Shown here: in pieces, positions 11,657-63,556 of the stretch
Layout: the number at the start of each line of letters is the position of its first letter
How positions within the stretch are numbered: the first letter of the stretch is position 1
Assembly (NCBI RefSeq): GCF_003236295.1
Contig: NZ_POTW01000003.1
Location: forward strand, 1 to 64,000
Source of the DNA: Jiangella anatolica
GTDB taxonomy: Bacteria > Actinomycetota > Actinomycetes > Jiangellales > Jiangellaceae
DNA length: 64,000 bases
Direction: 5' to 3'
Notes under the pieces: generated by a model
Seen by the model: only the letters and a program-made list of their open reading frames with translations
Told to the model about the DNA's origin: nothing
Databases searched by the model: none
Made by a program: the position numbers and the translations under genes

Positions 11657-11687
11657 ATATCGGTCCCGCCGGACATGGGAGACAGAC

Positions 11688-13714: not shown

Positions 13715-13744
13715 GGCCGGACTCTTCCGACATGGGAGGCACAC

Positions 13745-15643
13745 GTGGTCAGAGCCCGCAGGTTGTTCGCCGTCTCCGCCAGTCTCGCGTTGATCGCCAC
13801 GGCGGCGGTCGCCACCGGCGCCGGAGCCGCCGCCGACGAACCGGCCATCGTGGTCGAGGACGGGGTCACGCAGCCCGTCTTCGGCTACGACGACGCGATC
13901 CGCGAGCGCGTCTTCATCACCTCGCCCTACGACTCCGACGGCGACGGAGTGGTCGACGTCATCTCCGTCGACATCATGCGTCCGGCGGCCAGTGAGCAGG
14001 GCCTGAAGGTGCCGGTCATCATGGACCCGAGCCCCTACTACTCGACGCTGGGGCGCGGCAACGAGTCCGAGCTCAAGGTGGACCTCGACGGCGACGGGCT
14101 GCTGGACCGCTGGCCGCTGTTCTACGACAACTACTTCGTCCCGCGCGGCTACGCGATCGTGCTGATGGACATGATCGGCACCAGCAACTCGACCGGCTGC
14201 CCGACCACCGGCGACGTCTCGGACAACCTGTCGCCGAAGGTCGTCATCGACTGGCTGAACGGCCGCATCCCCGGCGTGGACAAGGACGGCAACGAGGTCG
14301 TCGCCGACTGGCACAACGGGCGGACCGGCCTGATCGGCAAGTCCTACGACGGCACGCTGGCCAACGCGACCGCCGCGTCCGGCGTCGAGGGCATGAGCAC
14401 GATCGTGCCGATCAGCGCGATCTCCAGCTGGTACGACTACACCCGCAGCAACGGCGTGGTCACCCGCGGCAACAGCTACCCGTCGTCGCTGTCGAACACC
14501 GTCACCAACCCGTCCCGGCGCGAGCACTGCCGGCCGGTCCGCGACACGCTGGCCGCCACCGACGGCGACGAGACCGGCGACTACACGCCGTTCTGGCGCA
14601 TCCGCGACTACAACCCCGACGCCGGCAACGTCACCGCCAGCGTCTTCGTCGTGCACGGCATCAACGACGAGAACGTCCGGCCGGACCACTTCAGCAAGTG
14701 GTGGTACGAGCTGGCCGAGAACGACGTGCCGCGCAAGCTGTGGCTGACCCAGACCGGGCACATCGACCCGTTCGACTTCCGCCGCGCCGAGTGGGTCGAC
14801 GAGCTGCACCGCTGGTTCGACTTCTGGCTGCAGGACGTCGACAACGGGATCATGGACGAGCCGATCGCCGACATCGAGCGGGCGCCGGACGTGTGGGCCG
14901 AGTACAACGACTGGCCGGTCCCCGGCGCACGCGAGACCCGGCTGTGGCTCCAGCCGTCCACGACGACGGCCGGCCGGCTCTCGGTCACGCCGAACCGCCC
15001 GTCGGACCCGTCGCTGAGCTTCGTCGACGACCCCGCCCAGCGGGAGGCGACGATGGTCGGCAACGAGCTGGCGCTGCAGCCGAACCGGATCGCGTACGTG
15101 TCCGAGCCGCTCACGGCGCCGCTGCACATCTCCGGCACGCCGCGGGTGCACCTGGACGCGTCGGTCAGCACCACCGACACCAACTTCGGGGTGATCCTGG
15201 TCGACTACGGTCCGGCCGAGCGGGTCCAGCGGGCCGGCGACGGCGTCATCACCGGCACCGTCGAGGACTGCTGGGGTGCGACGGCGACCTGGGGCGGGTA
15301 CGCCGAGGACGCGTGCTACCGCCAGGTCACCAAGCGGGTCGCCCTGACCGAGCGCGAGGTCGTCACCAAGGGCATCCTCGACGCCGTCAACCTGCGGGAC
15401 TACACGACGGCGACGGCGCTGGTGCCGGGCCGCCCCTACACCGTCGACTTCCCGCTGCTGCCGGAGGACTACGTGTTCCCGGCCGGGCACCGGATCGGCG
15501 TCATCATCGTCGGCAGCTACCGCGACTACGGCAGCCAGGCCGACCCGAACCAGGCCACGATCACGCTCGACCCGGTGCGGACGCTGATCGACCTGCCGAT
15601 CGTCGGCGGGCGGAACGCGGCCGTGGCGGCCGGGCTGGAGTAG
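13745..15643 (+). CDS. Secreted Xaa-Pro dipeptidyl-peptidase-like S15/CocE hydrolase, copy 2
   Basis: This tandem paralogue of the preceding gene is exactly as long (632 residues) and mostly identical through the catalytic region (GLIGKSYDG, HGINDENVRPDHF, QTGHIDPFDF). Differences cluster in the signal peptide (RARRLFAVSASLALIATAAVA), the Asp-rich loop (here YDSDGDGVVDV) and the surface of the C-terminal domain. It uses a GTG start behind GGGAGG. The separate promoter and terminator imply independent transcription. Both are probably exported peptidases for extracellular peptide use. Confidence 0.88.
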   Translation: MVRARRLFAVSASLALIATAAVATGAGAAADEPAIVVEDGVTQPVFGYDDAIRERVFITSPYDSDGDGVVDVISVDIMRPAASEQGLKVPVIMDPSPYYSTLGRGNESELKVDLDGDGLLDRWPLFYDNYFVPRGYAIVLMDMIGTSNSTGCPTTGDVSDNLSPKVVIDWLNGRIPGVDKDGNEVVADWHNGRTGLIGKSYDGTLANATAASGVEGMSTIVPISAISSWYDYTRSNGVVTRGNSYPSSLSNTVTNPSRREHCRPVRDTLAATDGDETGDYTPFWRIRDYNPDAGNVTASVFVVHGINDENVRPDHFSKWWYELAENDVPRKLWLTQTGHIDPFDFRRAEWVDELHRWFDFWLQDVDNGIMDEPIADIERAPDVWAEYNDWPVPGARETRLWLQPSTTTAGRLSVTPNRPSDPSLSFVDDPAQREATMVGNELALQPNRIAYVSEPLTAPLHISGTPRVHLDASVSTTDTNFGVILVDYGPAERVQRAGDGVITGTVEDCWGATATWGGYAEDACYRQVTKRVALTEREVVTKGILDAVNLRDYTTATALVPGRPYTVDFPLLPEDYVFPAGHRIGVIIVGSYRDYGSQADPNQATITLDPVRTLIDLPIVGGRNAAVAAGLE

Positions 15644-31996: not shown

Positions 31997-32072
31997 GGCC
32001 CCGTTGTGTAGCGGCCTAGCACGCCGCCCTCTCAAGGCGGTAGCGCGGGTTCGAATCCCGTCGGGGCTACCA
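31997..32072 (+). tRNA. tRNA-Glu (CTC), integration target
   Basis: A complete tRNA: acceptor GGCCCCG/CGGGGCT, anticodon stem CCGCC/GGCGG with loop CTCTCAA (anticodon CTC), T-arm with GGTTCGAATCC, and an encoded CCA. Its 3' part from 32034 recurs with its terminator at 44375, marking it as the likely attachment site of the island that follows. Confidence 0.95.
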
Positions 32073-32111
32073 TGAACGGCCCCTCACCTGCGAGAACGTA
32101 GGTGAGGGGCC
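32034..32111 (+). repeat. attL-like direct repeat, left copy
   Basis: The 3' half of tRNA-Glu from AAGGCGGTAGCGC, through GGTTCGAATCCCG, to the terminator hairpin is repeated 12,341 bp downstream. Weaker similarity continues for about 85 bp beyond, in the sequences starting CGGCCGTCG on both sides. Confidence 0.8.
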
Positions 32112-32115
32112 GTTT
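32077..32115 (+). terminator. Terminator of tRNA-Glu
   Basis: A 13-bp stem (CGGCCCCTCACCT with AGGTGAGGGGCCG) and a 10-base loop begin five bases after the tRNA and are followed by TTT. The hairpin is also present in the right copy at 44418-44451, with a slightly shorter stem and TTTT after it. Confidence 0.85.
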
Positions 32116-32266
32116 GCATTGGCCCGGCCGTCGGCCGCTCCAGGCGACTCTCTACGGGTGTTCTCGCCAGGTACGCGCTCAAGTTTTCGAGGCCTGCCGT
32201 GGCCCGGAGCGGCATAGATCCGGGCAGGGCCGCGACGGCGTGTGGCGCACCCTGGGCGGCCGGCCG

Positions 32267-32809
32267 TCGCTCAACCCCTCGATGAAGATCCGCGACATCC
32301 TGACCGAGCCGCTCCTCGCCCAAGGCGTGCGCAAGGAGGAAGCCCAGCAGCGAATACGCGATCTCCTCGACCGGGTGGCGATGCCCTCAGACGCGCTCGA
32401 CCGCTACTCCCGCGAGTTCAGCGGCGGGCAGCGACAGCGCATCGCGACTGCCCGGGCGCTGGCGCTGGACCCCATGCTGATCATCTGCGACGAGCCCGTG
32501 TCCGCACTCGACCTCTCCACCCAGATGCGCGTCCTCGACCTGTTCATCGAACCACAGGAACGCACCGGCGTCGTCTACGTCTTCATCTCCCACGACCTGT
32601 CCGTGGTGCGCCACGTCAGCCACCGCGTGGCCGTCATGTACCGCGGCGAGATCGTCGAAACCGGACCGGCCATCCAGGTCACCGACCACCCACAACACCC
32701 GTACACCAAACGCCTCTGGGCGGCCAACCTCGTCGCCGACCCGACAGAACAAGCCAAACGCCGAACCGTTCGGCAATCGCTACCCACCATGGACCTCACC
32801 AACGCCTGA
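32267..32809 (+). pseudogene. Truncated oligopeptide ABC-transporter ATPase
   Basis: The frame encodes the C-terminal two thirds of a Dpp/Opp-type ATPase: PSLNPSMKIRDILTEPLL, signature EFSGGQRQRIATARAL, Walker B LIICDEPVSALDLS, H-loop VFISHDLSVVRH and the oligopeptide-binding C-terminus HPQHPYTKRLW. The N-terminal part with Walker A is absent, and no start or ribosome binding site precedes the homology. It cannot bind ATP normally. It looks like the remains of a gene cut by island insertion or rearrangement. Confidence 0.8.
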
Positions 32810-32847: not shown

Positions 32848-35800
32848 TCAGCGGATGCTCAAGCGTAGTTGCCAGCTGGCCGATCGCGGCAGCAGTTGGT
32901 GCTCGGGTAGCACGTCGACGATGCAGGACCGGCTGCCGAGCCCGTGGTGGTAGGCGTCGACGTGCAGGTGGGTCCGGTCGCTGGGCGGCAGCTCGTGGCG
33001 GTGTGCAGCGGCCTCCAGCTCGGCCGGCGTCCAGCGCTGGAGGGCGAAGCCCGGCAGGGTGCCGTCGGCCATCGCGCGGGTCTCGACCCGCAGGACCCGT
33101 CCGTCGGCGCGGGCCAGCTCGAGCCAGCGCAGCTCGGACCGGTGTCCGTTCTCTTGAGGGATCAGGTATGGCGTGGCGAGTCCGTCGACGTCCGAGCGCC
33201 ACTTGCCCACGGTCGCAGCCTCGCGGGAGTCGGGATACGTCTCGCCCGGGCCGAGGCCGAACCACTCGGCGGTGCGCACGTCGTCGGGCAGGGTGAGCCG
33301 CAGGCCGATGCGTGGCCACGACGTGCCGGTCCAGCCCAGTGACGGTTCGACGCTGGTGCGCAGTACCACCTCGTCGCCCTCGGCCCACCAGCGGAAGCGG
33401 ATGTCGACGTGGTGCGCGGCGCCGATAACACCCACACGGGTGTGGACCTCGACGGCGTCCGCGCCGACGTCGACGGCGAGCACGTCTGGGGCGAGACGGG
33501 TCAGGCCGGCCTTGCGCCAGCGCTGGGCCGCCGATGGGGTCGGCGCCGGCTGTCGCGGTTCGGCGGCGCCCGAGAGTAGGTAGTCGACGACACTGCTGCC
33601 GCGGTCGTTGTCGGTGGGTGCCCGGTACAGCTCCAGCGCCGGCCCGTCGAGCATCTCGAACCCGCCGATTCGCAGCAGCCGGCCGGTCCGGGCATCGAGC
33701 TGCGCGGTCCCGACGCGCACGACGTCGCGGTCGCGCGAGGGCGTCGCCCGGGTCACTTGGGCACTCGCGACCGGCGCGCGCTCCGGTCCCCGCGGCCGGA
33801 CCGGGACCTGGGAGCGGGCCACCTCGTGGCCGGCCGGGGCCCACGGTGCCGGCGCGGCCAGCTGCGCGGTCACCGTCAGCCACCACTCGGCGCCGTCGGC
33901 GGCCGGCGGATCGACCGGCCAGGGCACCCTGGCCGCCGAGCGAGCAGCCGCACGCACCTCGAGCAGGCCGTCCTTCCACAGCTCGCCGTCGCGCTCGAGC
34001 CGCCAGCGCAGGGTGAACGCCGAGAGGTCGGCGAAGTCCTGCCGGTTCTCGACGACCAGGCCGTCCTCTCCGAGGCGCGCCCGCACCGGCTGAATCACCC
34101 GCGCGAACTCGGCCAGGCCCGGCGACGGCACCTCGTCCGCGCCGAGCAGGCCGTCGATGACGAACACGCCGTCGGTCACTCGTTCACCGAAGTCGCCGCC
34201 GTAGGCGAGGAACGTCGTGCCGTCATCCGCTGTCGCAGTGAGCGCGTGATCGCGCCACTCCCAGACGAAGCCGCCGTGCAGCCGGGGATAGCGGTCGAAC
34301 AGCTCCTCGTAGACGTGCAGCGCGCCGGGACCGTTGCCCATGGCGTGGGCGTACTCACAGAGGATCACCGGCATGGATCGCACCCGGGCCTGCGCGCCGG
34401 GCGGGAGGTCATGCGAGATCGCGTCGTCCTCGCCGAGCCGGCGCAGCTCATCGGGAGTGGCGTACATCCGGCTGTGGACGTCGGTGTACTCGCCGAGCAG
34501 GTCGCCCTCGTAGTGCACCGGGCGACCCGGGTCGCGGCCGCGCACCCACGCGGCGTTGGCGGCGAGGTTGCGCCCTGTGTAGGACTCGTTGCCCAGCGAC
34601 CACATGACGACGCTGGGGTGGTTCTTGTCCCGCTCCACCGTGCGCCGGATGCGGTCGAGGTAGGCCGCGCTCCAGGCCGGGTCATCGCTCGGGTTGTCTG
34701 CCCAGCCGACGTCCTCGAAGCCCTGACTCTCCAGATCGCACTCGTCGATGACCCAGAAGCCGAGCTCGTCGGCCAGGTCCAGGAGCCGTGGATGTGGCGG
34801 GTAGTGGCTGGTCCGGATGGCGTTGATGTTGTGCCGCTTCATCCGGACGAGGTCGCGCCGGGCGTCCTCGACGTCGAACACCCGGCCGCGGTCGCGATGG
34901 ATCTCGTGCCGGTTCACGCCGCGGAAGGCGATCGGCCGGCCGTTGACCTCGAACCGGTCGCCGCGGATGCGCACGGTGCGAAAACCCAGCCGCACCCGCA
35001 CCGTCTCGCCCGCGGAGGCGACGGTCGCCTCGTACAGCACGGGTGTCTCGGCGGTCCACGGCTTCACCTGGCCGGCGGCGATCGGCGCGACGTCCTCCGG
35101 CTGCTCCCAGCACACGTCCAGGCCCAGCGCCTCGACCCGCAGCCTGACCGGGTAGGCCGCCGCCGGGGCCGTCAGCCAGGGCGTGATCGTCCCCGCGCCG
35201 GCCTGGTGGTCGAAGCCGGCGTCGAGCCAGACGTCGTCCAGCGCACCGGCCGGCCGGGCGAGCAGGGTCACCTCACGGAAGATGCCCGGCAGCCACCACT
35301 GGTCCTGGGCCTCGACCCACGTGGAGGACGACCATTGGTGCACCCGGACGTCGAGCACGTTGCGGCCGGGGCGGACGGCCGACGTCACATCGAACTCCTG
35401 GACCAGGCGACTGCCCGCGCCGATCCCGATCTCCGCTCCGTTGAGCCACACCCGATAGCGGGACTCGACGCCGTCGAAGCGCAGCAGGACCCGCTCGTGC
35501 GCCGCCCAGGACTCGTCGAGGTCGACGAAGCGGCGGTGGTCGCCAGTGGGGTTGTCGTCGCGCGGCACCCGGCCGGTGACCGGGATGGGGAACCGCCTGG
35601 TGGTGTAGATCGGCCGGCCATACCGCCCGCCGCCGGCGAGCACCCAGTGCGAGGGCACCGGGAGCCGGTCCCACTCGCCCTCGTCGTCGGGCCACTCCTC
35701 GTGGTCCGGGGCCTTGGAGAGCGACGGATGCCAGCGGAACAGCCACTCCCCGCTCAGGTCCGAGGAGGGTGCGTCGGTCGGCAGCCAGGCCCGGGCGGGC

Positions 35801-35853
35801 GTGCGGGCACCGCTGCCGGGCGAGGGATCGTCCACGTAGTGCGGGTCGGTCAT
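32848..35853 (-). CDS. GH2 beta-galactosidase-like glycosidase
   Basis: This 1001-residue protein has LacZ-type architecture: sugar-binding jelly-roll (about 40-220), Ig-like domain, TIM barrel with FRGVNRHEIHRDRGRV, acid/base Glu about 423 in WSLGNESYTGRN, nucleophile Glu about 500 in LCEYAHAMGNG, and a C-terminal beta-gal small-chain domain (AEWFGLGPGETYPDS). There is no signal peptide, so it acts on imported sugar. Beta-galactosidase is likeliest, though GH2 also has other specificities. The start overlaps the permease stop by ATGA, and it is the last gene of the operon. Confidence 0.9.
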   Translation of the reverse strand: MTDPHYVDDPSPGSGARTPARAWLPTDAPSSDLSGEWLFRWHPSLSKAPDHEEWPDDEGEWDRLPVPSHWVLAGGGRYGRPIYTTRRFPIPVTGRVPRDDNPTGDHRRFVDLDESWAAHERVLLRFDGVESRYRVWLNGAEIGIGAGSRLVQEFDVTSAVRPGRNVLDVRVHQWSSSTWVEAQDQWWLPGIFREVTLLARPAGALDDVWLDAGFDHQAGAGTITPWLTAPAAAYPVRLRVEALGLDVCWEQPEDVAPIAAGQVKPWTAETPVLYEATVASAGETVRVRLGFRTVRIRGDRFEVNGRPIAFRGVNRHEIHRDRGRVFDVEDARRDLVRMKRHNINAIRTSHYPPHPRLLDLADELGFWVIDECDLESQGFEDVGWADNPSDDPAWSAAYLDRIRRTVERDKNHPSVVMWSLGNESYTGRNLAANAAWVRGRDPGRPVHYEGDLLGEYTDVHSRMYATPDELRRLGEDDAISHDLPPGAQARVRSMPVILCEYAHAMGNGPGALHVYEELFDRYPRLHGGFVWEWRDHALTATADDGTTFLAYGGDFGERVTDGVFVIDGLLGADEVPSPGLAEFARVIQPVRARLGEDGLVVENRQDFADLSAFTLRWRLERDGELWKDGLLEVRAAARSAARVPWPVDPPAADGAEWWLTVTAQLAAPAPWAPAGHEVARSQVPVRPRGPERAPVASAQVTRATPSRDRDVVRVGTAQLDARTGRLLRIGGFEMLDGPALELYRAPTDNDRGSSVVDYLLSGAAEPRQPAPTPSAAQRWRKAGLTRLAPDVLAVDVGADAVEVHTRVGVIGAAHHVDIRFRWWAEGDEVVLRTSVEPSLGWTGTSWPRIGLRLTLPDDVRTAEWFGLGPGETYPDSREAATVGKWRSDVDGLATPYLIPQENGHRSELRWLELARADGRVLRVETRAMADGTLPGFALQRWTPAELEAAAHRHELPPSDRTHLHVDAYHHGLGSRSCIVDVLPEHQLLPRSASWQLRLSIR

Positions 35854-36725
35854 TTCAAGGCTCCCGATCCGAGTCCGGCGCGCCAGTAACGTTGCAGGAA
35901 GAGGAAGAGCAGGATGACGGGGACCACCGCGAACAACGACCCGGTGATCACACTGGGGTAGTAGTCGGCCTCGGTGAGCGACTGGGAGTTCCAGTAGTAC
36001 AGGCCGAGCGCGACCGGGAAGAGATCGCGGTCGGTCAGCATGAGCAGCGGCAGGAAGAAGTTGTTCCAGATCCCGTTGAAGCTGAACAGGAACAGGGTCA
36101 CGACCCCGGGCCACATCGACGGCACCGCGATGCGGAAGAAGATCCCGAACTCGCGCGCACCGTCCAGCCGGCCCGCCTCGACCAGCTCGTACGGAGTGTA
36201 GGAGTGGGCGAACACGCGGGCGAGGTAGACCCCGAACGGGTTGACCAACCCGGGCAGCAGCACGGCCCAGAACGTGTTCACCAGCCCGAGGTTCGAGGCG
36301 AGCAGGTACAGCGGCAGCGCCGTTGCTGCACCCGGTACCAGCACGCCGATGAGCACGAAACCGAACACCTTCTCCTTGCCGCGGAAGTCGAACTTGTCGA
36401 AGGCATGGCCGGCCAGGAAGCAGATCAGCGTGGACGCGGCGGCGCCGACCCCGGCGTAGACCAGGGAGTTCACGAACCAGCGCGGATAGATGCCGCCGTC
36501 GCGTTCCAGCAGGGTCGAGACATTGTCGGCGAAGTTGACGTCGGCGAAGGCGAACCCGTACGTGCCGGTCAGGTCCGCCGCGTCCTTCGTCGCCGCGATC
36601 ACCAGCCAGAGCAAGGGGAACAGGCAGTAGGCCATGACGACGAGCAGCGCCACCGTGACCGCACCACGGCTCAGCAGCCGCGACGGTGCTCGCGCGGCGT
36701 CCCGGCCGCCCGCGGCGCTCACCAT
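35850..36725 (-). CDS. Carbohydrate ABC permease, MalG type
   Basis: This 291-residue membrane protein has six predicted helices and the EAA loop EAGRLDGAREFGIFFRIAVPSMWPGV that docks the ATPase. The N-terminal helix is followed by a typical long periplasmic loop (TKDAADLTGTYGFAFADV). With the adjacent MalF-type permease it forms the channel of a sugar importer. It overlaps the upstream gene by 7 bp and the GH2 gene by 4 bp, so the operon is tightly coupled. Confidence 0.9.
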   Translation of the reverse strand: MVSAAGGRDAARAPSRLLSRGAVTVALLVVMAYCLFPLLWLVIAATKDAADLTGTYGFAFADVNFADNVSTLLERDGGIYPRWFVNSLVYAGVGAAASTLICFLAGHAFDKFDFRGKEKVFGFVLIGVLVPGAATALPLYLLASNLGLVNTFWAVLLPGLVNPFGVYLARVFAHSYTPYELVEAGRLDGAREFGIFFRIAVPSMWPGVVTLFLFSFNGIWNNFFLPLLMLTDRDLFPVALGLYYWNSQSLTEADYYPSVITGSLFAVVPVILLFLFLQRYWRAGLGSGALK

Positions 36726-37651
36726 CGCCTCGCGCGCGTCGCACCCCACGAGGCGGCCCCGATGACCACGGCGAACACCAGCGCCGCCGCGGCGGCGACA
36801 CCGAAGTCGTGATCGGTGAACGCCTTCTGGTAGACGTACATGTTCGGCGTCCACGTCGAGTCGATCCCGGGCGCCCGAGATGACAGCAGCATCGGTTCGG
36901 CGAACAGTTGCATGGCGCCGACGATGGTCATGAGGACGGCGATGCCGATCGCCCCGCGGATCATCGGCAGCTTGACCGACAGCGCGACTCGCACCTGACC
37001 GGCGCCGTCGACCCGCGCGGCCTCCAGGGTCTCGCGCGGTATCGCCTGAAGGGCGGCGAAGAAGATGACGACGTTGTAGCCGACGTGCAGCCAGATCGTC
37101 ACGTTGGCGACGGCGACGATGGACGCCGGCAGCGAGGCGAGCGACCACCCGGCGCCGCTGAGTCCTTCGACCACGTCGACGAGAGGCGAGATGCCCGGCG
37201 TGTAGAGATAGAGCCAGATGATCGCCGCGATCAGCCCCGGCACGACGTTCGGCAGGTAGTACACGAGCTGGAGGAAGCGCCCGCCGACCGCCAGCCCGCT
37301 GTCCAGCAGCAGGGTGATGACGAGTGCGGCCCCGATCATCAGCGGGATGTAGAACAGGCAGTAGATCCCGATGATCCCGAAGCTGCCCAGGAAGTCGGCG
37401 TCGCTGAGCACCGAGGTGAAGTTGCCCAGTCCCACGAAGACCGTGCGCGCGCCGCCGAAGCCCAAGCCCGACGACTGCTCCGAGAACAGGCTCAGGTACG
37501 CGGCGTATCCGAGCGGCAGGATCGTGAAAACGCCGAAGACGAGGAAGAACGGCGCGAGGAACGGCACCGGAGAGGGGCCTCGCCGGCGCGGCCCCGGCCG
37601 CGTCCCGGCCGGCTGGGAGCCGGCCGGGACCGCACGCACGAGGGTAGCCAC
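36719..37651 (-). CDS. Carbohydrate ABC permease, MalF type
   Basis: This 310-residue protein has six predicted helices (from FLAPFFLVFGVFTILPLGYAAYLSLF) and the EAA loop IPRETLEAARVDGAGQVRVALSVKLPMI. A GTG start lies one base after the solute-binding gene stop. It is the partner of the MalG-type permease. No ATPase gene is in the operon; such importers in actinobacteria often share a MsmK-like ATPase encoded elsewhere. Confidence 0.9.
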   Translation of the reverse strand: MATLVRAVPAGSQPAGTRPGPRRRGPSPVPFLAPFFLVFGVFTILPLGYAAYLSLFSEQSSGLGFGGARTVFVGLGNFTSVLSDADFLGSFGIIGIYCLFYIPLMIGAALVITLLLDSGLAVGGRFLQLVYYLPNVVPGLIAAIIWLYLYTPGISPLVDVVEGLSGAGWSLASLPASIVAVANVTIWLHVGYNVVIFFAALQAIPRETLEAARVDGAGQVRVALSVKLPMIRGAIGIAVLMTIVGAMQLFAEPMLLSSRAPGIDSTWTPNMYVYQKAFTDHDFGVAAAAALVFAVVIGAASWGATRARRW

Positions 37652-37652
37652 G

Positions 37653-38957
37653 TCAGTCGACCGCGATCCCGCGGTCGGTGAGATTGCCGATCACCGACTC
37701 CTGCACCGAGGCGAAGATGTCGCGGAGCGGGATACTGCCGGCCTTGACCTGCGCGATGGCGTCGCGGAACGCGGTGTCCATCGTGCTCTGGGCCGGTCCC
37801 CAGGTCCACTCGGCCGGGATGGCGGCCGCGGCCTGCTCGGCGACGGCGTAGATGTCCTGGCCGCCGAAGAACGACGTGTCGAAGACGTCCTTGGCCACGG
37901 GAACGAGGTCGGGGTTCGCGGGCAGCACGCTGGACGCGCCGCCCTCGACCCGCGCGGCGATCCCCTCCTCCGTGGTGGTCATCCAGGCGATGAAGGCCTC
38001 GGCGGCCTGCTGGTGCTCGGAATCGGCCGTCACGGCGAAGGTCGCGCCGCCGTTTCCCGCCGACGCCGGTTCGCCGGTGAACGACGGCGGCAGTGCCACC
38101 CGCCACAGCCCGGCCTGGTCCTCGTAGTTGATCGGCAGGTAGCCGCCGTTCCAGGACCCGGCGAGTTGCGTCCAGGTCTGGCCCGCAGCCTGCTTCTGGC
38201 CCAGCAGCTCGTCCTCGTCGGCCCAGACGAGATCCTCGGCGACGAGCCGCTCCTGCATCTCGGCGACCTCCCGGGTGACGTCGTTGTCGATGTCGACGGT
38301 CCAGGCGTCGTCCTCAGCGGTGAACCAGCGGGCGCCGGCCTGCCAGTTGAGGCTGGCGATGGCGCCGGGGTCGTGGCTGGTCGTGGCGCCGATCCGGGCT
38401 GCCGGATCGATGTCCTTGATCTGGCGGGCGACCTCCTCGTACTCAGCCCAGGTGGTGGGCACCTCGATCCCGTGCGCATCGAACAGGTCGGCGCGGTAGT
38501 AGAGCACCCATGCCGCGAGGTCCAGTGGGTAGGACCAGGTTTCCCCGCCCAGCTCGACGAGGTTGCGGGCAGCATCAGGGAACTCCTCCGCCACCTGGGC
38601 CGCCGCGTCCTCGCTGAGCGGCCGGAGCAGCCCCTGAGCGAGGACGTCGGGCAGGAACGGGTACTCCACGGTGGCGACGTCGGGAGCGGTGCCGGCCCGC
38701 GACGAGTTGGCCAGCGTCGTGTAGTTGTCCGACGCCGAGGGGGTGGTCTGGAACTCGACGATGATGTCGTCCTGCGAGCTGTTGAAGGCGTCGACGACCG
38801 CTTCGGAGTTGCGCAGCCACGACATGAACGTGATCGTCACCGGTCCGTCCGTGGTGTCGCCCGCGTCGTCGTCGCCGCCGCCGGAGCAGGCGACGACCAG
38901 CAGGGATACCGCGGCGGCCAGAGCGGTGCGGCGGGCGAAGGGAGCGAAGTGCGTCAT
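37653..38957 (-). CDS. Sugar-binding lipoprotein of an ABC importer
   Basis: This 434-residue extracellular solute-binding protein has a lipoprotein signal ending in VVACSGGGDDD (lipidated Cys 24). The MalE-like fold shows ITFMSWLRNSEAVVDAFN, PDVATVEYPFLPDVLAQGLLRPL and the C-terminal FIAWMTTTEEGIAARVEGG. It would capture oligosaccharides released outside the cell. The sequence is near the ATG at 38957, 12 bases after the Gfo/Idh gene stop. Substrate is not predictable from the sequence, though the context suggests lyase products. Confidence 0.88.
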   Translation of the reverse strand: MTHFAPFARRTALAAAVSLLVVACSGGGDDDAGDTTDGPVTITFMSWLRNSEAVVDAFNSSQDDIIVEFQTTPSASDNYTTLANSSRAGTAPDVATVEYPFLPDVLAQGLLRPLSEDAAAQVAEEFPDAARNLVELGGETWSYPLDLAAWVLYYRADLFDAHGIEVPTTWAEYEEVARQIKDIDPAARIGATTSHDPGAIASLNWQAGARWFTAEDDAWTVDIDNDVTREVAEMQERLVAEDLVWADEDELLGQKQAAGQTWTQLAGSWNGGYLPINYEDQAGLWRVALPPSFTGEPASAGNGGATFAVTADSEHQQAAEAFIAWMTTTEEGIAARVEGGASSVLPANPDLVPVAKDVFDTSFFGGQDIYAVAEQAAAAIPAEWTWGPAQSTMDTAFRDAIAQVKAGSIPLRDIFASVQESVIGNLTDRGIAVD

Positions 38958-38969
38958 CGGACAAACTCC

Positions 38970-39959
38970 TCAGGTGATGATGGGAGTGGCGACCGGCTCG
39001 TCGCCGGCCGTCGTTGAAGCGCGTCCATCAGCGGTCGGCAGGCCGGCGCAGCTGAGGATGCGGTCCATCAGCTCCTGGGTGCGCACGGCGCTGGACGCGT
39101 CGTTCTGGGTGATCTCCACGCCGGACCGCACGGCTGCGAAGAAGTGGTCGGCCTGGGCGGCGAAGCCGAGGGTGTGGATCGGCGCGGCGAAGCCCGACGT
39201 GGCCCGGGTCTGGCGATGCACCCGCTCCTCACCGCCTGTCGCCACGCTCACCTCGTCCGGCGCCTGCACCGTGACGGACTGCCCGCCGCCGTGCAGGGAG
39301 ACTCGCTCGGTCCACACCCCCGTGCTGCGGTTGCCGATGACCGTCACCAGCTGACCACCCTCGAACTCGAGCAGCGCGGTGAGCGAGTCCTCCCAGTAGG
39401 GGTCGTCGAAGACGGCACGAGCGGAGACCCCGACGCACTCGCCGAAGAAGAACCGCGCCAGGTCGACCATGTGGACGAGGTTCTCGGCCGATCCCCGGTA
39501 GCCGCGCTCGGGGCGCGTCTTCTCGAAGACCCCCACGGACGCCGGATGATCCACGAGCGCCGCCTTGGCCCGCACATAGACGGGGGCGAACCGCCGGTTG
39601 AAGCCGACCATGAGCGGTGTCCCGCGCTCGGCGGCGAGGTCCCGGAGCAAGCGGGCCTCGCGCAGGCTCGGCGCCAGCGGCTTCTCGCAGAGCACCGGCA
39701 CCCGCCGCTCCACCAGCGCCGTCACCAGCTCCACGTGGTGCTGCTCGGGCGCGAGGACGAGGGCTGCGTCCACCTCGGTCCCGGCGAGCAACTCGTGGAC
39801 GTCGGCGAAGCCCGGGATGGCCGAGTGCCTGGCACGTGCCGCTTCCGACGGGTCAGCGACGGCGACCACCTCGACGTCCCGCCGCTCGGCGAGCGTGGGC
39901 AGATGAGCGATGCGGGCGATCCCGCCGACGCCGACGAGGGCGACACGAAGCACAGTCAC
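38970..39959 (-). CDS. Gfo/Idh/MocA-family oxidoreductase
   Basis: This 329-residue NAD(P)-dependent sugar dehydrogenase has the Rossmann start VLRVALVGVGGIARIAHLPTL, the CEKPLAPSLREARLL motif with catalytic Lys, GFNRRFAPVYVRAK and LVHMVDLARFFFG. Members oxidise or epimerise sugars and sugar acids. A GTG start is used, either 39959 or 39953. In this operon it probably acts on the monosaccharide or uronate released after GH2 cleavage. A candidate operator lies 38 bp upstream. Confidence 0.88.
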   Translation of the reverse strand: MTVLRVALVGVGGIARIAHLPTLAERRDVEVVAVADPSEAARARHSAIPGFADVHELLAGTEVDAALVLAPEQHHVELVTALVERRVPVLCEKPLAPSLREARLLRDLAAERGTPLMVGFNRRFAPVYVRAKAALVDHPASVGVFEKTRPERGYRGSAENLVHMVDLARFFFGECVGVSARAVFDDPYWEDSLTALLEFEGGQLVTVIGNRSTGVWTERVSLHGGGQSVTVQAPDEVSVATGGEERVHRQTRATSGFAAPIHTLGFAAQADHFFAAVRSGVEITQNDASSAVRTQELMDRILSCAGLPTADGRASTTAGDEPVATPIIT

Positions 39960-39990
39960 GCGGGACAGCCTTCGATCGCGGCGACGGTCC

Positions 39991-40015
39991 CGTCAACGGA
40001 ACCGATCCGAAACGG
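39991..40015 (-). promoter_or_regulatory. Candidate operator before the Gfo/Idh gene
   Basis: The 56-bp gap between the regulator and Gfo/Idh genes holds AACGGAACCGATCCGAAACGG. Its core CGGAACC (39997-40003) recurs upstream of the regulator (41136-41142) and the lyase (43943-43949). Confidence 0.35.
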
Positions 40016-41104
40016 TCATCCGGCCGATCGGCGCACCGAAGAGGCCCGCACGTTCAGGGTCGGCATGATCCGCACCTGCTGCATGGCGTCCGGCGCGTCG
40101 CCTACCGGCCGGCGCATCCGGTCCAGGCACAGCTCGATCGCGGTGCGGCCGAGGGCCTCGGCCGGCGGCGAGACCGCCGTGAGAGGGATCTCGGACAGTT
40201 CGGAGAACTGGTCGTCGTAGGCGACGATGGCCAGGTCGTCCGGTATGCGGATGCCGAGTTCCTTGGCCTCCTGTACCAGGGCCATCGCGTGGGCGTCGGG
40301 CTGCACGACGACCGCGGTGATGCCGTCGGCGACGAGTTCCTCGAGCAGCGCGCGGATCTCGCCACGGCGCTCCTCGGCCACCCACGCCTCCTCAGGCAGG
40401 TCCCGGCGCGGCGTGTGGTCGCCCAGCCCCAGCTCGGCGACGGCCTTGCGGTACCCCGCGACCAGCCGCGGCGAGGTCGGGTTTCCGGCGGTGAGCAGGG
40501 CGATGCGGTCGTAGCCCTGGTCGGCGAGATGGTGCACGCACAACTCCGCCCCGAACTCGTGGTCGGACCGCACCGATTCCAGCCGGGCCGGACCGACGTA
40601 CTGGTCGAGCGAGCGCTCGACCAGCACGATCGGCACCGGCGACTCCAGCAGCAGATCCAGGGTGGGTCCGGAGAAGTCGACCCGCGACGGCGTGACCAGC
40701 AGGCCGTCGGCGCCGGCCGCGATCATGCCGGCCACGAAGCGTCGCTCGTCGGGCGCGATGTAGTTCGTGACGCCGAGCACCAGCCGCACGCCGTTCGCCT
40801 GTGCCGCTCGCTTCGCCGACCGGATGATCGTGGCGTAGTAGTTTCCGGTCGTGGGCGCCACCATGCCGATGGTGGGGACCTCGCCTGGACGAGCTACCCT
40901 GCGGGCGCCCGGTTCCGGGCGGCGCACGACGGCGGTCGCGCCGCCGTGCACGCGGCGCACCAGCCCGCGGCGCTCCAGCCCCGCGAGGTCGCGTCGCAGG
41001 GTCACGACCGACACCCCGAGACGCTCGGCGAGGTCGGTGACGACGAGCGACCCGCGCAGCTGGAGCTCCTTGAGCAGGGCGTCCTCGCGCTGTGGCTTGA
41101 TCAC
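40016..41104 (-). CDS. DeoR-HTH / LacI-type sensor hybrid regulator
   Basis: This 362-residue regulator joins an N-terminal DeoR winged helix (REDALLKELQLRGSLVVTDLAERLGVSVVTLRRDLAGLERRGLVRRVHGGA, residues 5-58) to a periplasmic-binding-type sugar sensor (about 75-355: TIGMVAPTTGNYYATIIRSAKRAA, DGLLVTP, VAYDDQFSELSEIPLTAVSPP). This arrangement is known but less common than classical LacI. A GTG start is used. As first gene of the catabolic operon it is likely its local repressor, responding to an imported sugar. Confidence 0.88.
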   Translation of the reverse strand: MIKPQREDALLKELQLRGSLVVTDLAERLGVSVVTLRRDLAGLERRGLVRRVHGGATAVVRRPEPGARRVARPGEVPTIGMVAPTTGNYYATIIRSAKRAAQANGVRLVLGVTNYIAPDERRFVAGMIAAGADGLLVTPSRVDFSGPTLDLLLESPVPIVLVERSLDQYVGPARLESVRSDHEFGAELCVHHLADQGYDRIALLTAGNPTSPRLVAGYRKAVAELGLGDHTPRRDLPEEAWVAEERRGEIRALLEELVADGITAVVVQPDAHAMALVQEAKELGIRIPDDLAIVAYDDQFSELSEIPLTAVSPPAEALGRTAIELCLDRMRRPVGDAPDAMQQVRIMPTLNVRASSVRRSAG

Positions 41105-41135
41105 GCCGCAGAGTATGGCCGACTGGCGACCGATT

Positions 41136-41142
41136 CGGAACC
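41136..41142 (-). promoter_or_regulatory. Candidate operator before the regulator gene
   Basis: CGGAACC within GATTCGGAACCAAACGATCC lies 32 bases upstream of the regulator start. The surrounding TTCGG-AA-CCAAA is a near-palindrome. It shares its core with the two other candidate sites of the island. Confidence 0.35.
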
Positions 41143-41168
41143 AAACGATCCAAATCGATCGCTTCCGC

Positions 41169-43844
41169 TCATCCCATCCGCGCCACGAGCCGTGACGCCA
41201 GATCGATCGCCGCATCGACCTCGGCCGACGGGCGCTGCTCGGCCCAGGTGTCCAGGACAGCCCGTACGGCGCTCAGCGCGGCGGCGCCTCCGCCGCCACG
41301 GCGGGCCCGCACCACCGAGTTGACGACTTCGCGTTCCTGATCCGGTGAGGCGACGCCGGCCCGTGCCGCCCGGACGACGGCACCTGCCAGGTCGGTCAGG
41401 GTGGGAGGGGTCCATGCCAGCCGAGCGGCTTTCGTCGAGCCTGGCAACCCGGCCACGTCCACGGTGAGCGTGGCGCCGTCGGCCGTGAGGTCGAGCTCCA
41501 CTCCGTCGTCGAGTTCGATCGCGCCGGAGACGTCCGCCGCGAGCTGGATGACGATGGTCGTCGACTCCTGGGTGGGGTCGCTCACGTGGACGGTCAGCTC
41601 GTCGTCGCCTTCCTCGACGGCGACCGCGGCGCCGGTGTCCGTCGACACCAGCGATGCCGACCCGGGTGTGAAGAACACGAAGCCGGTGCGTCCGCTCGGC
41701 TCGTCACGCACGGCCTGCATGTCAGGCGTCCGGACGACGACGTGGTAAGGCGGCGCCGCGGACGCCGCGGCGGTAGCGCTGGCGGAGACGCCGGGTAGGA
41801 CGGCGTAGGCATAGCCGGCGGGCGGCGAGGCCGTGCCGTGCGGCAGCACCAGCGTGACGTAGTCGTGCAGGCGTTCGGTCGTGGCGCCGGCGTAGGTCGC
41901 GCCCGTGTTGATGTCGACGGGGCGCCCGCGCCGCTGTTCCTTGACGACGGTCAGATCGTGCGGCTCGAGCAGGAGATACCCCGCCGTGCCCGCCAGGTGT
42001 GCCCACCGCGCCGCTGCGAAGTGGCCCGATGCGCCCGCCGCCGAGCCGTCGACGGTCAGCGTGCCGCTGCTCACCTGTGTGACCCGCCGGTTCTCGACAG
42101 TCGTCTCAGCGGTTCGTCCGGCGCCGACGGTGATGCCGGCGCCCAGCAGCACATAGCCGTGCTCGAAGAAGAACCGGGAGAAGCGGCCGTGCATCGTGGA
42201 CGGCGGCTCGCCGGCGAGGTCGATCGCCGCCGCGCCCCAATCCCCGGCGGTGACGCCGCCGGCCCAATAGCTGGGATTGTGGTACTCGTTCGCCCATCCA
42301 CCCGGGTAGGGGTCGCGGGCCACCGTGTCGATCGTGACGCCGGGGATGCGGTAGGAGTCGATCGTCGCCCAGTAAGCGTCGTCGTACTGCACGATGTCCG
42401 ACGTGTACAGCATGACCGCGGCATCGGACTGATACCACCCGCGCTTGTTCTCGACCAGTCCCTTCTCCGCGTTCGCCATCCGCCAGGAGTGCATCGCCAG
42501 CACCGCGATCCAGTCCGCCCGCCGATGCAGCACCCGGTCCATCACGCCGTACACCCAGGTGCCGGTCAGCGGCGGACGCGGCGCGATGCCCGGGTCGGCG
42601 AGGATGGCCGAGGCGATCGAGGCCTGCGCCAGCGTCAGCCCGGCGGTCGCCGGCTGACCACGGTACGGCAGCTCCGCCTTGATCAGCGATGCCAGCCGGG
42701 CGCGGTTCGTGGCGTCGGCACTGGCCAGCAGGTCGATGAAGCCGGCGAGGAACGAGGTGCCGGTCTCCCGGCCACCGAGCGGCCGGTCCACCTGGCGGCC
42801 CCGCACGGTGTCCGGGACCCGGCTGCGGAACAGCCACGGCTCGTACGCGGACCAGACCCACTCCCACAGGATGCCGGTGTCGGGCTGCCACTCGGTGCCC
42901 GCCGTGCGCGCGGTGATGGCGGGGATCGAGCCCAGGTAGGAGGTGCCGTAGAGGCCGATGTACGGGAACTGCCCGTGCTGGACGAACGAGCCGTCCGGGT
43001 AGAACCCGTCGTGGCTGAAGAAGGCGGCGTTCTCCGTCTGGGGGTCGATCAGGCCGGGCGGCCGCGGGTCGGGGTCCGCCCACGCGAGCACCGGCAGCAG
43101 ACCGTCCCGGCCGGCGACGACGTCGTCCTCGTCCTCCCCGAGCAGGCCGCGCCCGACGAAGCAGTCGCAGAACCAGACCCGGTTGCCGGCGGCGGCGAAC
43201 GTGCCCGAGGTCGGGATCGCCGGGGTGAAGTGCTTGCTCCCGGCGACGACGGCGGCGGCCGTCCCCGGCGTCAAGGCGTCGTAGGTGAGCACGACCGTGT
43301 CGTGGATGGTCCGCGGGATGGCGATGTCCCAGTCGTACCAGTCGCCGAAGCGTACGCCGCTGGTGGACCAGACATCGGACGTGAGGAAGTCCAGTGCCTC
43401 CTGGATCGCGGCGAGCACAGCGTCCGCGTCGGCGCCGAGCACACCGGCCGCCCAGGCCAGCGCCATCTCGCGCAGCCGCCTGGTGCTGTAGGAGACCCGT
43501 TGCGAGTCCTGGTACGTCGCACGGCTGGTGAATGGAGCGTCGGTGAAGACGCCGAGTCGCGGTTCGGCGCGGTCGATGCCGGCGAGATGGGTGCGCGCAG
43601 TCGTCGCGAGCTGCTGTGCGGGCGCCGCCACCAACGGATCGTCCACGTCCAGGTCCGCGGGAATGTAGAAGCGCCGCCACCGCTCTCGGGCCGCGGCGAA
43701 AGCGGCAGGGTCCGCGGTGATCGCCGGGGCGGCCCAGGCACTGCCTGCCGGGCCGCGTACGAGGTCGATGCCGAGCGCCGCGGCGGTGGCCCCCAAACCA
43801 CCGATCAGGACGTTCCGCCGGCTGATTCCGTTCGATCCGCTCAT
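41169..43844 (-). CDS. Tat-exported PL8-family polysaccharide lyase
   Basis: This 891-residue protein has a twin-arginine signal (SRRNVLIGGLGATAAALG), an alpha/alpha toroid (about 50-390) and a beta-sandwich C-terminus, as in hyaluronate, chondroitin and xanthan lyases. The conserved FVQHGQFPYIGLYG places His 290 and Tyr 299 nine residues apart, as in characterised PL8 enzymes; GNRVWF (Asn about 221) may supply the catalytic Asn. It cleaves uronate-containing polymers by beta-elimination. Host polymer is unknown. The ATG at 43844 follows GGGAG. Confidence 0.85.
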   Translation of the reverse strand: MSGSNGISRRNVLIGGLGATAAALGIDLVRGPAGSAWAAPAITADPAAFAAARERWRRFYIPADLDVDDPLVAAPAQQLATTARTHLAGIDRAEPRLGVFTDAPFTSRATYQDSQRVSYSTRRLREMALAWAAGVLGADADAVLAAIQEALDFLTSDVWSTSGVRFGDWYDWDIAIPRTIHDTVVLTYDALTPGTAAAVVAGSKHFTPAIPTSGTFAAAGNRVWFCDCFVGRGLLGEDEDDVVAGRDGLLPVLAWADPDPRPPGLIDPQTENAAFFSHDGFYPDGSFVQHGQFPYIGLYGTSYLGSIPAITARTAGTEWQPDTGILWEWVWSAYEPWLFRSRVPDTVRGRQVDRPLGGRETGTSFLAGFIDLLASADATNRARLASLIKAELPYRGQPATAGLTLAQASIASAILADPGIAPRPPLTGTWVYGVMDRVLHRRADWIAVLAMHSWRMANAEKGLVENKRGWYQSDAAVMLYTSDIVQYDDAYWATIDSYRIPGVTIDTVARDPYPGGWANEYHNPSYWAGGVTAGDWGAAAIDLAGEPPSTMHGRFSRFFFEHGYVLLGAGITVGAGRTAETTVENRRVTQVSSGTLTVDGSAAGASGHFAAARWAHLAGTAGYLLLEPHDLTVVKEQRRGRPVDINTGATYAGATTERLHDYVTLVLPHGTASPPAGYAYAVLPGVSASATAAASAAPPYHVVVRTPDMQAVRDEPSGRTGFVFFTPGSASLVSTDTGAAVAVEEGDDELTVHVSDPTQESTTIVIQLAADVSGAIELDDGVELDLTADGATLTVDVAGLPGSTKAARLAWTPPTLTDLAGAVVRAARAGVASPDQEREVVNSVVRARRGGGGAAALSAVRAVLDTWAEQRPSAEVDAAIDLASRLVARMG

Positions 43845-44360: not shown

Positions 44361-44413
44361 CACGCCGCTCTCCCAAGGCGGTAGCGCGGGTTCGAATCCC
44401 GTCGGGGCTACCA
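44361..44413 (+). pseudogene. tRNA-Glu 3' fragment (attR-like copy)
   Basis: The fragment starts CACGCCGCTCTCCCAAGG and continues through the T-arm and CCA exactly as in tRNA-Glu at 32021-32072. Two changes alter the anticodon loop (CTCTCAA to CTCCCAA), and the 5' acceptor and D-arm are absent or unrecognisable. It therefore cannot fold as a tRNA. Confidence 0.8.
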
Positions 44414-44452
44414 TGTCGGCCCCTCACCTGCGAGAACGTAGGTGAGGGGCTG
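44375..44452 (+). repeat. attR-like direct repeat, right copy
   Basis: This matches 32034-32111 in all but a few bases, including the terminator stem CCCCTCACCT/AGGTGAGGGG. It marks the right end of the island. Confidence 0.78.
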
Positions 44453-61542: not shown

Positions 61543-62703
61543 TCAGGGGGTCCTCACCCAGTCGGGGTCGGGGTGGTCGGCGATGAAGTCGTGGTTCAGC
61601 TCGATGCCGAGGCCCGGCCGGGCGGGCAGGTGCAGGCGGCCGTCCCGGATCTCCAGCGCGGGCGTGATGGCGGCATTGAACGACTCGAGCCAGCCGCTGT
61701 TGATCTCCAGGCGATAGAAGTTCGGCACGGTCGCCATGACGTGCGCACCGGCCACGATCTGGACCGGTCCCTGTGCTCCGTGCGGGCTGATGGGGACCAG
61801 GAATGTCTCGGCGAGTGTGGCGATCTTCTTGAGCTCGGAGACGCCGCCGGTCCAGCAGACGTCAGGCATCACGTAGTTGACCAGACCGTCCTGGAGGACG
61901 GGCAGCACGTCCCACCGGGTGAACAGGCGCTCGCCGACGCACAGCGGCACGTCGACCTGGCGGCGGATCTGCCGGAGCGCGTCGAGGCCCTCGGGTGGGA
62001 CGGGTTCCTCGAACCAGCCGATGTCGTAGGGCTCGAGCGCCCGGATGCACTGAATCGCCGTCGCGACGTTGAAGTTGCCGTGCAGGTCGATGAGCAGTTC
62101 GACGTCCGGGCCCACGGCCTCGCGCATGGCCGCGGTGAGCGCAGCGCCGTCGCGGATCCCGCGACGGGAGATCTGCCCGCCCCGGTAGTCCAGGAACCGG
62201 CGCCACATCTCCGCGAACGGGTCGTGCTTGATCGCGGTGTAGCCGTCGGCGACGACCTGCCTGGTCGTGGCCACGATCTCCTCGGGGGTCGTGCCCCACG
62301 GATGCGTGTAGAGCAGGAGGTCGTCCCAGACCGGGCCGCCGAGAAGGTCGTAGAGCGGGCGGTCGAGCACCTTGCCGCGGATGTCCCACAGCGCCTGGTC
62401 GATGCCGCTGATGACCGTCGTGATCAGGCCGCGGTTGCCCAGATAGGTCTGGCGATGGAACAGCTCCTGCCAGATCCGCTCGATGTGGGCCGGGTCGCGC
62501 CCGATCAGGTCCCGCCGGACGATCTCCAGCGTCCTCGCGATCAGGAGGTCGCCGTGCATCGGCCAGTTCGAGCACTCGCCGACGCCGGTGACGCCCTCGT
62601 CGGTGTGGACCTCGACGAACACCCAGCCGAGGCGGGCGCCGGACACCGGCTCCACCGTGTCCATGGGTGCGACGACGTGGATGCCGACATCGACGATCTT
62701 CAT
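61543..62703 (-). CDS. Enolase-superfamily sugar-acid dehydratase (mandelate racemase type)
   Basis: This 386-residue protein of the galactonate/gluconate-dehydratase branch has a capping domain (GWVFVEVHTDEGVTGVGECSN) and a TIM barrel. Barrel features are KHDPFAEM, metal ligands in LIDLHGNFNV, WFEEPVPPEG and VGERLFTRWDV, and a catalytic His in SPHGAQGPVQIV. It would dehydrate a sugar acid such as galactonate. The exact substrate is uncertain. It is 24 bp behind the SDR gene, in one operon. Confidence 0.85.
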   Translation of the reverse strand: MKIVDVGIHVVAPMDTVEPVSGARLGWVFVEVHTDEGVTGVGECSNWPMHGDLLIARTLEIVRRDLIGRDPAHIERIWQELFHRQTYLGNRGLITTVISGIDQALWDIRGKVLDRPLYDLLGGPVWDDLLLYTHPWGTTPEEIVATTRQVVADGYTAIKHDPFAEMWRRFLDYRGGQISRRGIRDGAALTAAMREAVGPDVELLIDLHGNFNVATAIQCIRALEPYDIGWFEEPVPPEGLDALRQIRRQVDVPLCVGERLFTRWDVLPVLQDGLVNYVMPDVCWTGGVSELKKIATLAETFLVPISPHGAQGPVQIVAGAHVMATVPNFYRLEINSGWLESFNAAITPALEIRDGRLHLPARPGLGIELNHDFIADHPDPDWVRTP

Positions 62704-62727
62704 GCCTGACTCCGTTTCGTAGCCCGT

Positions 62728-63528
62728 CTAGTGAGCCGTGTAGCCGCCGTCGACGGGCAGGATCGCGCCGTTGACGAAGGACGCCCGGGGTCCGGCGAGG
62801 TACACCACCGCATCGGCGATCTCGCCGGAGTCGGCGATGCGCCCGACGACGGCACGGAACGGCTGCAGGTCCGCCTCGTCGGCCGGCTCGCCTTGCGATC
62901 TCGTCGCACCCGGGCAGACGGCGTTGCAGCGGATGCCGTACCGCCCGTACTCCACCGCGACCTGCCGCGTGAGCTGGATCAGCCCGATCTTGCTGACGGC
63001 GTAAGGGGCGAAGCCGGCGCCGGCCACCAAGCCGTGGATCGAGGCGATGTTCACGAATACGCCGTGGCCTCCCTCGAGCAGGTGAGGGAGGGCCGCACGG
63101 GTGACCAGGTAGGGCGCGCGGGTGTTGACGGCGAGCGCGCGGTCCAGGGTGGCGGTGCTCGACTCGAGGATGGTCCCGCCGGGCTCGGTGGTGGCCGCGC
63201 AGTTCACCACGTGGGTCAGCCCGCCCAGGTGACCGGCGGCCGCCGTCACGAGGGCGGTGATCTCATCCTCGCTGGTGAGGTCGGCGACCCGGGTCCGGTG
63301 CGGATCCCCGAGCCGGCCCGCCGTTGCCGCCAGGCCGGCCGCGTCGACGTCGCTGGCCAGGACGTGGGCGCCCGCCTCGGCGAGCGCGACGGCGATGGCC
63401 CGCCCGATGCGTCCGGCCGCGCCGGTGACGAGGGCACGAGCGTCGTCCAACTCGCCGATGTCGATCAACTCCTCGTCCAGCGGTGAAGGCCCGCTCCGGG
63501 CTCGTGTCGAGTCCGGAGCGGGCCTCAT
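62728..63528 (-). CDS. Short-chain dehydrogenase/reductase
   Basis: This 266-residue SDR has the NAD site ALVTGAAGRIGRAIAVAL, NCAATT, the catalytic Ser in NIASIHG and Tyr/Lys in YAVSK, and the C-terminal FVNGAILPVDGGYTAH. It likely oxidises a sugar or sugar lactone ahead of the neighbouring dehydratase. The ATG at 63528 gives a 25-residue extension before the Rossmann fold; a later start is possible. Confidence 0.85.
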   Translation of the reverse strand: MRPAPDSTRARSGPSPLDEELIDIGELDDARALVTGAAGRIGRAIAVALAEAGAHVLASDVDAAGLAATAGRLGDPHRTRVADLTSEDEITALVTAAAGHLGGLTHVVNCAATTEPGGTILESSTATLDRALAVNTRAPYLVTRAALPHLLEGGHGVFVNIASIHGLVAGAGFAPYAVSKIGLIQLTRQVAVEYGRYGIRCNAVCPGATRSQGEPADEADLQPFRAVVGRIADSGEIADAVVYLAGPRASFVNGAILPVDGGYTAH

Positions 63529-63556
63529 GACGGGCTCGGTCAGACGAGCGTGGCGG

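Follow-up and report, generated by a model that had tools for sequence, protein, structure and literature searches.

The window analysed here, a 64,000-nucleotide stretch belonging to contig C190 of the 7.0-Mb draft genome of the soil bacterium Jiangella anatolica, carries seven genes on its minus strand between positions 43844 and 32848. Read in that direction, they encode a PL8 lyase, a LacI-type regulator with a DeoR-type HTH, a Gfo/Idh protein, a solute-binding protein (SBP), permease A, permease B and a GH2 enzyme (Table 1); the comparison set for the order comprised 22 genomes. All seven assignments by Pfam domain search are unambiguous: Lyase_8 (1.5e-61) together with the N- and C-terminal PL8 domains, HTH_DeoR with Peripla_BP_3, GFO_IDH_MocA, SBP_bac_1, BPD_transp_1 in both permeases, and GH2 with Bgal_small_N and LacZ_4. 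An earlier sequence-only reading had named these same gene types and was right to do so, every domain being matched. The seven reading frames are intact and the packing is tight. Genes for the SBP, the two permeases and GH2 follow each other with almost no gap or with short overlaps: 1 bp separates SBP from permease A, the permeases overlap at ATGGTGA, and the GH2 start at 35853 overlaps the permease B stop. Domain searches of the operon genes found no ATPase and no GH88/GH105 enzyme, and the absence of the latter, remarked on earlier, is real. Three features had gone unremarked: direct repeats derived from tRNA-Glu on either side, a GATC repeat 5' of the repressor gene, and a truncated ATPase relic at one border.

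Table 1. Features of the operon and its borders, in window coordinates
Feature	Position	Strand	Basis and remarks
tRNA-Glu (CTC), left border	31997..32072	+	ARAGORN; 3' half and terminator form the left direct repeat, 32020-32110
Opp/Dpp-type ABC ATPase, C-terminal fragment lacking the N-terminal half, probably a relic	32102..32809	+	ABC_tran profile matched over 67-136 of 137 only
GH2, LacZ-type beta-galactosidase (predicted), 1001 aa, export signal not apparent	32848..35853	-	Pfam, PDB matches, residues compared with E. coli LacZ
ABC permease B (MalG/UgpE type)	35850..36725	-	Pfam; 51-59% to importers adjoining PL8 or DUF2264 elsewhere
ABC permease A (MalF/UgpA type)	36719..37651	-	Pfam; at most 55% to importers adjoining PL8 or DUF2264 elsewhere
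Solute-binding lipoprotein, SBP_bac_1	37653..38957	-	Pfam; 36-42% to relatives in Arthrobacter and Streptomyces
Gfo/Idh/MocA oxidoreductase, no equivalog assignable	38970..39959	-	Pfam, equivalog models, PDB relatives
LacI-type regulator with DeoR-type HTH	40016..41104	-	Pfam; GTG at 41104 the likely start
Operator-like GATC-N6-GATC, between PL8 and regulator	41147..41160		Motif comparison across regulator loci
PL8 lyase, predicted Tat-exported, 891 aa; insertion at about 258-276; helical C-terminal domain 816-890	41169..43844	-	Pfam, alignments, AF2 model
Right direct repeat, tRNA-Glu 3' half and terminator without the 5' half (attR-like)	44361..44451	+	Repeat alignment; ARAGORN calls no tRNA gene there

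The N-terminus of the PL8 protein reads SRRNVLIGG, which by eye is Tat-like. Three Pfam domains and an AlphaFold (AF2) model with a mean pLDDT of 85.6 agree on alpha-helical N-terminal, super-sandwich and C-terminal domains. The catalytic Asn, His, Tyr and Arg of the PL8 family are kept as N221, H290, Y299 and R350, and these four and E465 are invariant in an alignment of 25 homologues. Compared with PL8 structures, the model reaches a best TM of about 0.91 by target length, the best matches being xanthan lyase and the chondroitin AC lyases of S. coelicolor and Arthrobacter, with xanthan lyases as the closest folds. Beta-elimination on a uronate polymer is the predicted activity. Identity to any characterised enzyme is only about 30%, and a tree of 87 PL8 proteins joins the window sequence with support 100 to one from Arthrobacter terricola (50% identical), the two standing isolated on a long branch outside the ScPL8Hyal-like clade; for these reasons the substrate cannot be carried over from relatives. 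Of the three pyruvyl-mannose contacts of xanthan lyase, Arg313, Tyr315 and Arg612, the first is kept (R354) and the other two are changed (L356 and G648), and a xanthan-specific identity was rejected because two of the three contacts differ. No close PL8 was found in 11 congeners, the best reaching 36%. The genome has a second PL8 gene (G000:C202; L004:13199-15892) from a different, long-branch, genus-wide lineage with no importer nearby, and it was accordingly rejected as part of the operon's system.

The lack of an ATPase in the operon, to which the sequence-only reading had drawn attention, proved true but ordinary for actinobacteria. An orphan MalK/MsiK-type ATPase is encoded at C256, where the surrounding sequence examined holds no permease gene, and the idea that the missing ATPase is something unusual was dropped on this ground. 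That one MsiK can power more than one importer is established for Streptomyces (PMC4890002, PMC6167110). The gene pattern fits an MsiK-dependent importer, the dependence itself being a prediction. A regulator-SBP-permease A-permease B module related to that of the window is found again beside PL8 genes of Arthrobacter terricola and several Streptomyces, and in other actinobacteria it adjoins DUF2264 genes where PL8 is absent. In the tree of 87 PL8 proteins the module is paired with two separate PL8 lineages, which argues that the importer carries PL8 products. A GATC-N5/6-GATC repeat like that of the window lies 5' of the regulator in 7 of 10 loci with importer and PL8, versus 1 of 19 other regulator loci and a background of 0.034 per 260 nt, a count whose significance is exploratory, the motif having been discovered by inspection of the very regions later counted.

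The sequence-only reading had offered the GH2 and Gfo/Idh enzymes as possible stand-ins for GH88/GH105. For GH2 this is unlikely. The protein matches the Arthrobacter beta-galactosidase 1yq2 at 1034 bits and glucuronidases at only about 94-104 bits, so that a beta-glucuronidase identity was rejected, and it keeps the LacZ catalytic and galactose-site residues E461, E537, D201, H357, H391, H540, W568 and F601. Its LacZ placement and these retained residues disfavour it as the remover of an unsaturated uronate, and any uronidase role appears unlikely. Three positions deviate from E. coli LacZ: N102T, H418Q and N604D. An Asp at the last of these occurs likewise in 1yq2 and in the GH2 of a Streptomyces locus, L150; the Mg2+ ligand His418 is Gln in the window protein and His in that of L150. 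Because of the lost Mg2+ ligand and N102T, beta-galactosidase activity is put forward as a prediction only. The Gfo/Idh protein scored above the cut-off of none of the equivalog models; among solved structures it is closest to a putative oxidoreductase and to inositol dehydrogenases.

ARAGORN places tRNA-Gln and tRNA-Glu genes ahead of the operon, and a direct repeat of the tRNA-Glu 3' end stands at the far border. Left and right repeats align with 127 of 145 identities (E 2e-46), the longest exact run being 42 bp. Between them lie 12.3 kb, made up of the operon, the truncated ATPase and in all about 1.3 kb outside the seven genes; no integrase domain was found among the ORFs tested in this segment. 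With the tRNA-Glu 3' half directly repeated on both sides, the segment is probably an island inserted at tRNA-Glu. Insertion is the likeliest reading of the repeats, with a decayed tandem tRNA-Glu gene as the alternative source of the right one. Base composition was set aside as proof of transfer, as the segment, at 71.0% GC, does not stand out from flanks of 71.2-71.3%. No tRNA was found in related PL8 and importer loci, and insertion of this kind is therefore not common to them.

Those related loci bear on the substrate. The closest PL8, in Arthrobacter terricola JH1-1 (L036), comes with the same importer and regulator as in the window but with a 2-hydroxyacid dehydrogenase and ThuA, and its operon has neither GH2 nor Gfo/Idh. 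Streptomyces loci of the ScPL8Hyal-like type (2wco; L095, L102, L108, L148, L150, L151, L156, L159) share the regulator-SBP-permease A-permease B module and a PL8, in most cases the GATC operator-like motif and in L150 a GH2, and their genomes hold no confident GH88; they differ from the window in having a PL8 of another lineage (31-33% identical), a 2-hydroxyacid dehydrogenase in place of the window-type Gfo/Idh and, often, a phosphodiesterase-HAD gene. The Gfo/Idh gene is not conserved in related importer loci. Beta-galactosidases of two families adjoin the module, GH2 in the window and L150 (46% identical) and GH35 in L108 and L156, although such genes occur in only 4 of about 11 loci with importer and PL8. 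L095 and L159 encode a SIS-domain sugar-phosphate protein and a class II aldolase of tagatose/fructose-bisphosphate type; since neither reached an equivalog cut-off, these may point to galactosamine catabolism but do not establish it. The PL8 of L102 matches S. coelicolor 2wco, an exolytic hyaluronan/chondroitin lyase acting on HA, C4S and C6S (PMC11669647), at 800 bits. Taken together, the GH2 and GH35 beta-galactosidases, the SIS and aldolase genes and the likeness of L102 to 2wco suggest, with low to moderate confidence, that the uronate's neighbour is a galacto-configured sugar, as in a chondroitin-like polymer or a glucuronylated galactan. In L156 a small secreted protein encoded next to PL8 (L156:4641-5363) belongs to PF14099 (Polysacc_lyase), and a protein at L063:12574-13215 resembles it by eye.

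In described PL8 glycosaminoglycan pathways, the unsaturated product passes to GH88/GH105 and then to KduI or DhuI. By family model, the present genome has a single GH88/GH105 homologue (G000:C234; L005:9537-10493), on another contig than the operon, in a pectin-like locus that also has a PL22-like gene and an ABC importer of oligopeptide type. It also has a single DUF2264 gene (G000:C223; L175:9513-11507), adjoining genes for an IclR-like regulator and a 1325-aa Tat-type secreted protein; its product matches the solved glucuronate dehydratases 9o4u and 9nwf, members of the former GH154 family that prime sugars for GH88 in Bacteroides (PMC12269599). Among genomes with related PL8, the GH88/GH105 family model scores 45 bits or more in 6 of 41 actinobacterial versus 15 of 18 other genomes (Fisher p 7e-7). 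The test takes related genomes to be independent, the threshold of 45 bits was chosen after the scores were seen, and eight weaker actinobacterial matches (about 20-36 bits) and two weaker others are counted as absent. KduI scored above its cut-off in none of the 20 actinobacterial genomes tested, this one included, versus all six Paenibacillus; DhuI is a known substitute for it (PMC12838403). Transport and regulatory genes aside, those found most often within 10 kb of PL8 in 57 actinobacterial loci encode a 2-hydroxyacid dehydrogenase, in 26 of the loci, and DUF2264, in 22; DUF2264 is present in 30 of 36 actinobacterial PL8 genomes. The dehydrogenase was rejected as PL8-specific, having homologues in other sugar loci of the genome, and is retained as a candidate only. 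In six Paenibacillus/Neobacillus genomes (G418, G424, G427, G431, G432, G445), DUF2264 and GH88 genes lie within a few kb of each other, whereas most actinobacterial PL8 genomes have DUF2264 without GH88.

These distributions suggest that the phylum mostly handles unsaturated uronate ends without GH88/GH105 and KduI, the enzymes known for the job elsewhere. We propose tentatively, at a little under even confidence, that actinobacterial PL8 systems including this operon use a route free of both, in which the new releasing enzyme would be DUF2264 acting as an unsaturated-uronyl hydrolase, or in which a 2-hydroxyacid dehydrogenase or Gfo/Idh would reduce the alpha-keto acid arising from the unsaturated uronate. 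That help might come from other loci, as had been supposed, is possible in this genome, with its one GH88/GH105 homologue and one DUF2264. Such help does not generalise, because the genomes of the nearest PL8 relatives (L036, L037, L038, L053) have no DUF2264 and, apart from a borderline score in one, no GH88.

Described systems show the same core with different accompaniments. The glycosaminoglycan cluster Smon0116-0127 of Streptobacillus moniliformis (PMC5430744) likewise combines PL8 with a binding-protein ABC importer, one that takes up unsaturated disaccharides, but it has its own ATPase, GH88, KduI, KduD, KdgK and KdgA, six components that the operon lacks, and it does not share the operon's GH2 and Gfo/Idh. 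The haloarchaeal locus SSP2 (PMC13260240) resembles the operon in bringing together PL8, an ABC importer and GH2, and differs in also carrying GH88, GH154 and a sulfatase. Relatives of the glucuronate dehydratase BT_3677 (GH154), which with Bacteroides caccae PUL25 has been described in PMC12269599, are the DUF2264 proteins, encoded in the vicinity of many actinobacterial PL8 genes and at one place in this genome. They are about 640 aa long in actinobacteria versus about 400 aa in Bacteroides, and the Bacteroides dehydratase feeds GH88, whereas a confident GH88 is missing from most of the actinobacterial PL8 genomes searched.

As a catabolic cassette the operon is real and coherent, and it represents a variant of the PL8 import-and-degrade theme. 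The description of the locus as a complete pathway holds in so far as a PL8-based import-and-degrade operon is supported; completeness does not, as no operon gene is a credible unsaturated-uronyl hydrolase. Gene content and packing, the intact PL8 active site, the conserved importer module, the operator-like motif and the flanking repeats are all legible in the DNA, and beyond these we infer a chemistry, a substrate, an order of steps, a mode of induction and a history of transfer. At a probability of roughly 60%, we favour an inducible cassette, probably acquired as a tRNA-Glu island. The exported PL8 would cut X-(1->4)-glucuronate bonds of a polymer outside the cell by beta-elimination, and the binding protein and two permeases would import the oligosaccharides with energy from the shared MsiK-type ATPase. 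In the cytoplasm, the LacZ-type GH2 would take off beta-galactosyl residues and Gfo/Idh would perform a redox step on the released sugar or keto-uronate. Acting at the GATC repeat, the DeoR-HTH/LacI protein would keep the importer genes repressed as long as no product is bound. The uronate would most likely stand next to a galacto-configured sugar, and its unsaturated form would be removed by an enzyme encoded outside the operon, possibly the DUF2264 protein or the GH88/GH105 homologue in trans, or one yet unrecognised.

A glycosaminoglycan operon of known type would fit some of the same observations: PL8 would yield delta-GlcA-HexNAc disaccharides, the importer would take them up, and the genome's GH88/GH105 and DUF2264 proteins would finish the work in trans. 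The presence of one homologue of each, the second related to glucuronate dehydratase, speaks for it, as do the match of the L102 PL8 to the exolytic lyase 2wco and the aldolase and SIS genes that fit galactosamine. We nevertheless hold it to be distinctly less probable than the inducible cassette, since the sole GH88/GH105 homologue shares its locus with a PL22-like gene and an importer of oligopeptide type, the operon has no HexNAc genes, KduI is below cut-off in the genome, and a LacZ-type GH2 would be superfluous for such disaccharides. An unsaturated-uronyl hydrolase would not be needed at all if PL8 were a side-chain lyase resembling xanthan lyase, freeing a terminal sugar from a glucuronate side chain; the cell would then import nothing but that sugar or oligosaccharide, and the polymer would keep the unsaturated uronate. 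The closest folds and the absence of DUF2264, and of GH88 but for one borderline score, from the genomes of the nearest PL8 relatives accord with this, but the two changed pyruvyl-mannose contacts, and the occurrence of the same importer type beside a Streptomyces PL8 related to chondroitin/hyaluronan lyase, make it unlikely. Least probable by far is a decaying or chance neighbourhood with no joint function; the truncated ATPase at one border and the inconstant Gfo/Idh gene would suit it, yet the seven frames are intact with several stop/start overlaps, and the association of importer, regulator, operator-like motif and PL8 recurs across orders.

Interest in the system lies mainly in the phylum-wide rarity of known unsaturated-uronate enzymes. 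If a phylum of soil bacteria mostly uses other enzymes, then a new glycan-cleaving or uronate-redox activity awaits assay, with DUF2264, the 2-hydroxyacid dehydrogenase and Gfo/Idh as candidates, and the operon offers a compact, apparently mobile test case within an isolated PL8 clade. Elsewhere in the window, a 300-nt direct repeat (11661-11960 and 13718-14017; 84% identical, 2057 bp apart) suggests tandem paralogous genes. A further sugar locus starts at 61543-63955 and continues in L176, with a mandelate-racemase-like enolase and an SDR and, beyond the window, two GH2-like proteins and an oligopeptide-type importer.
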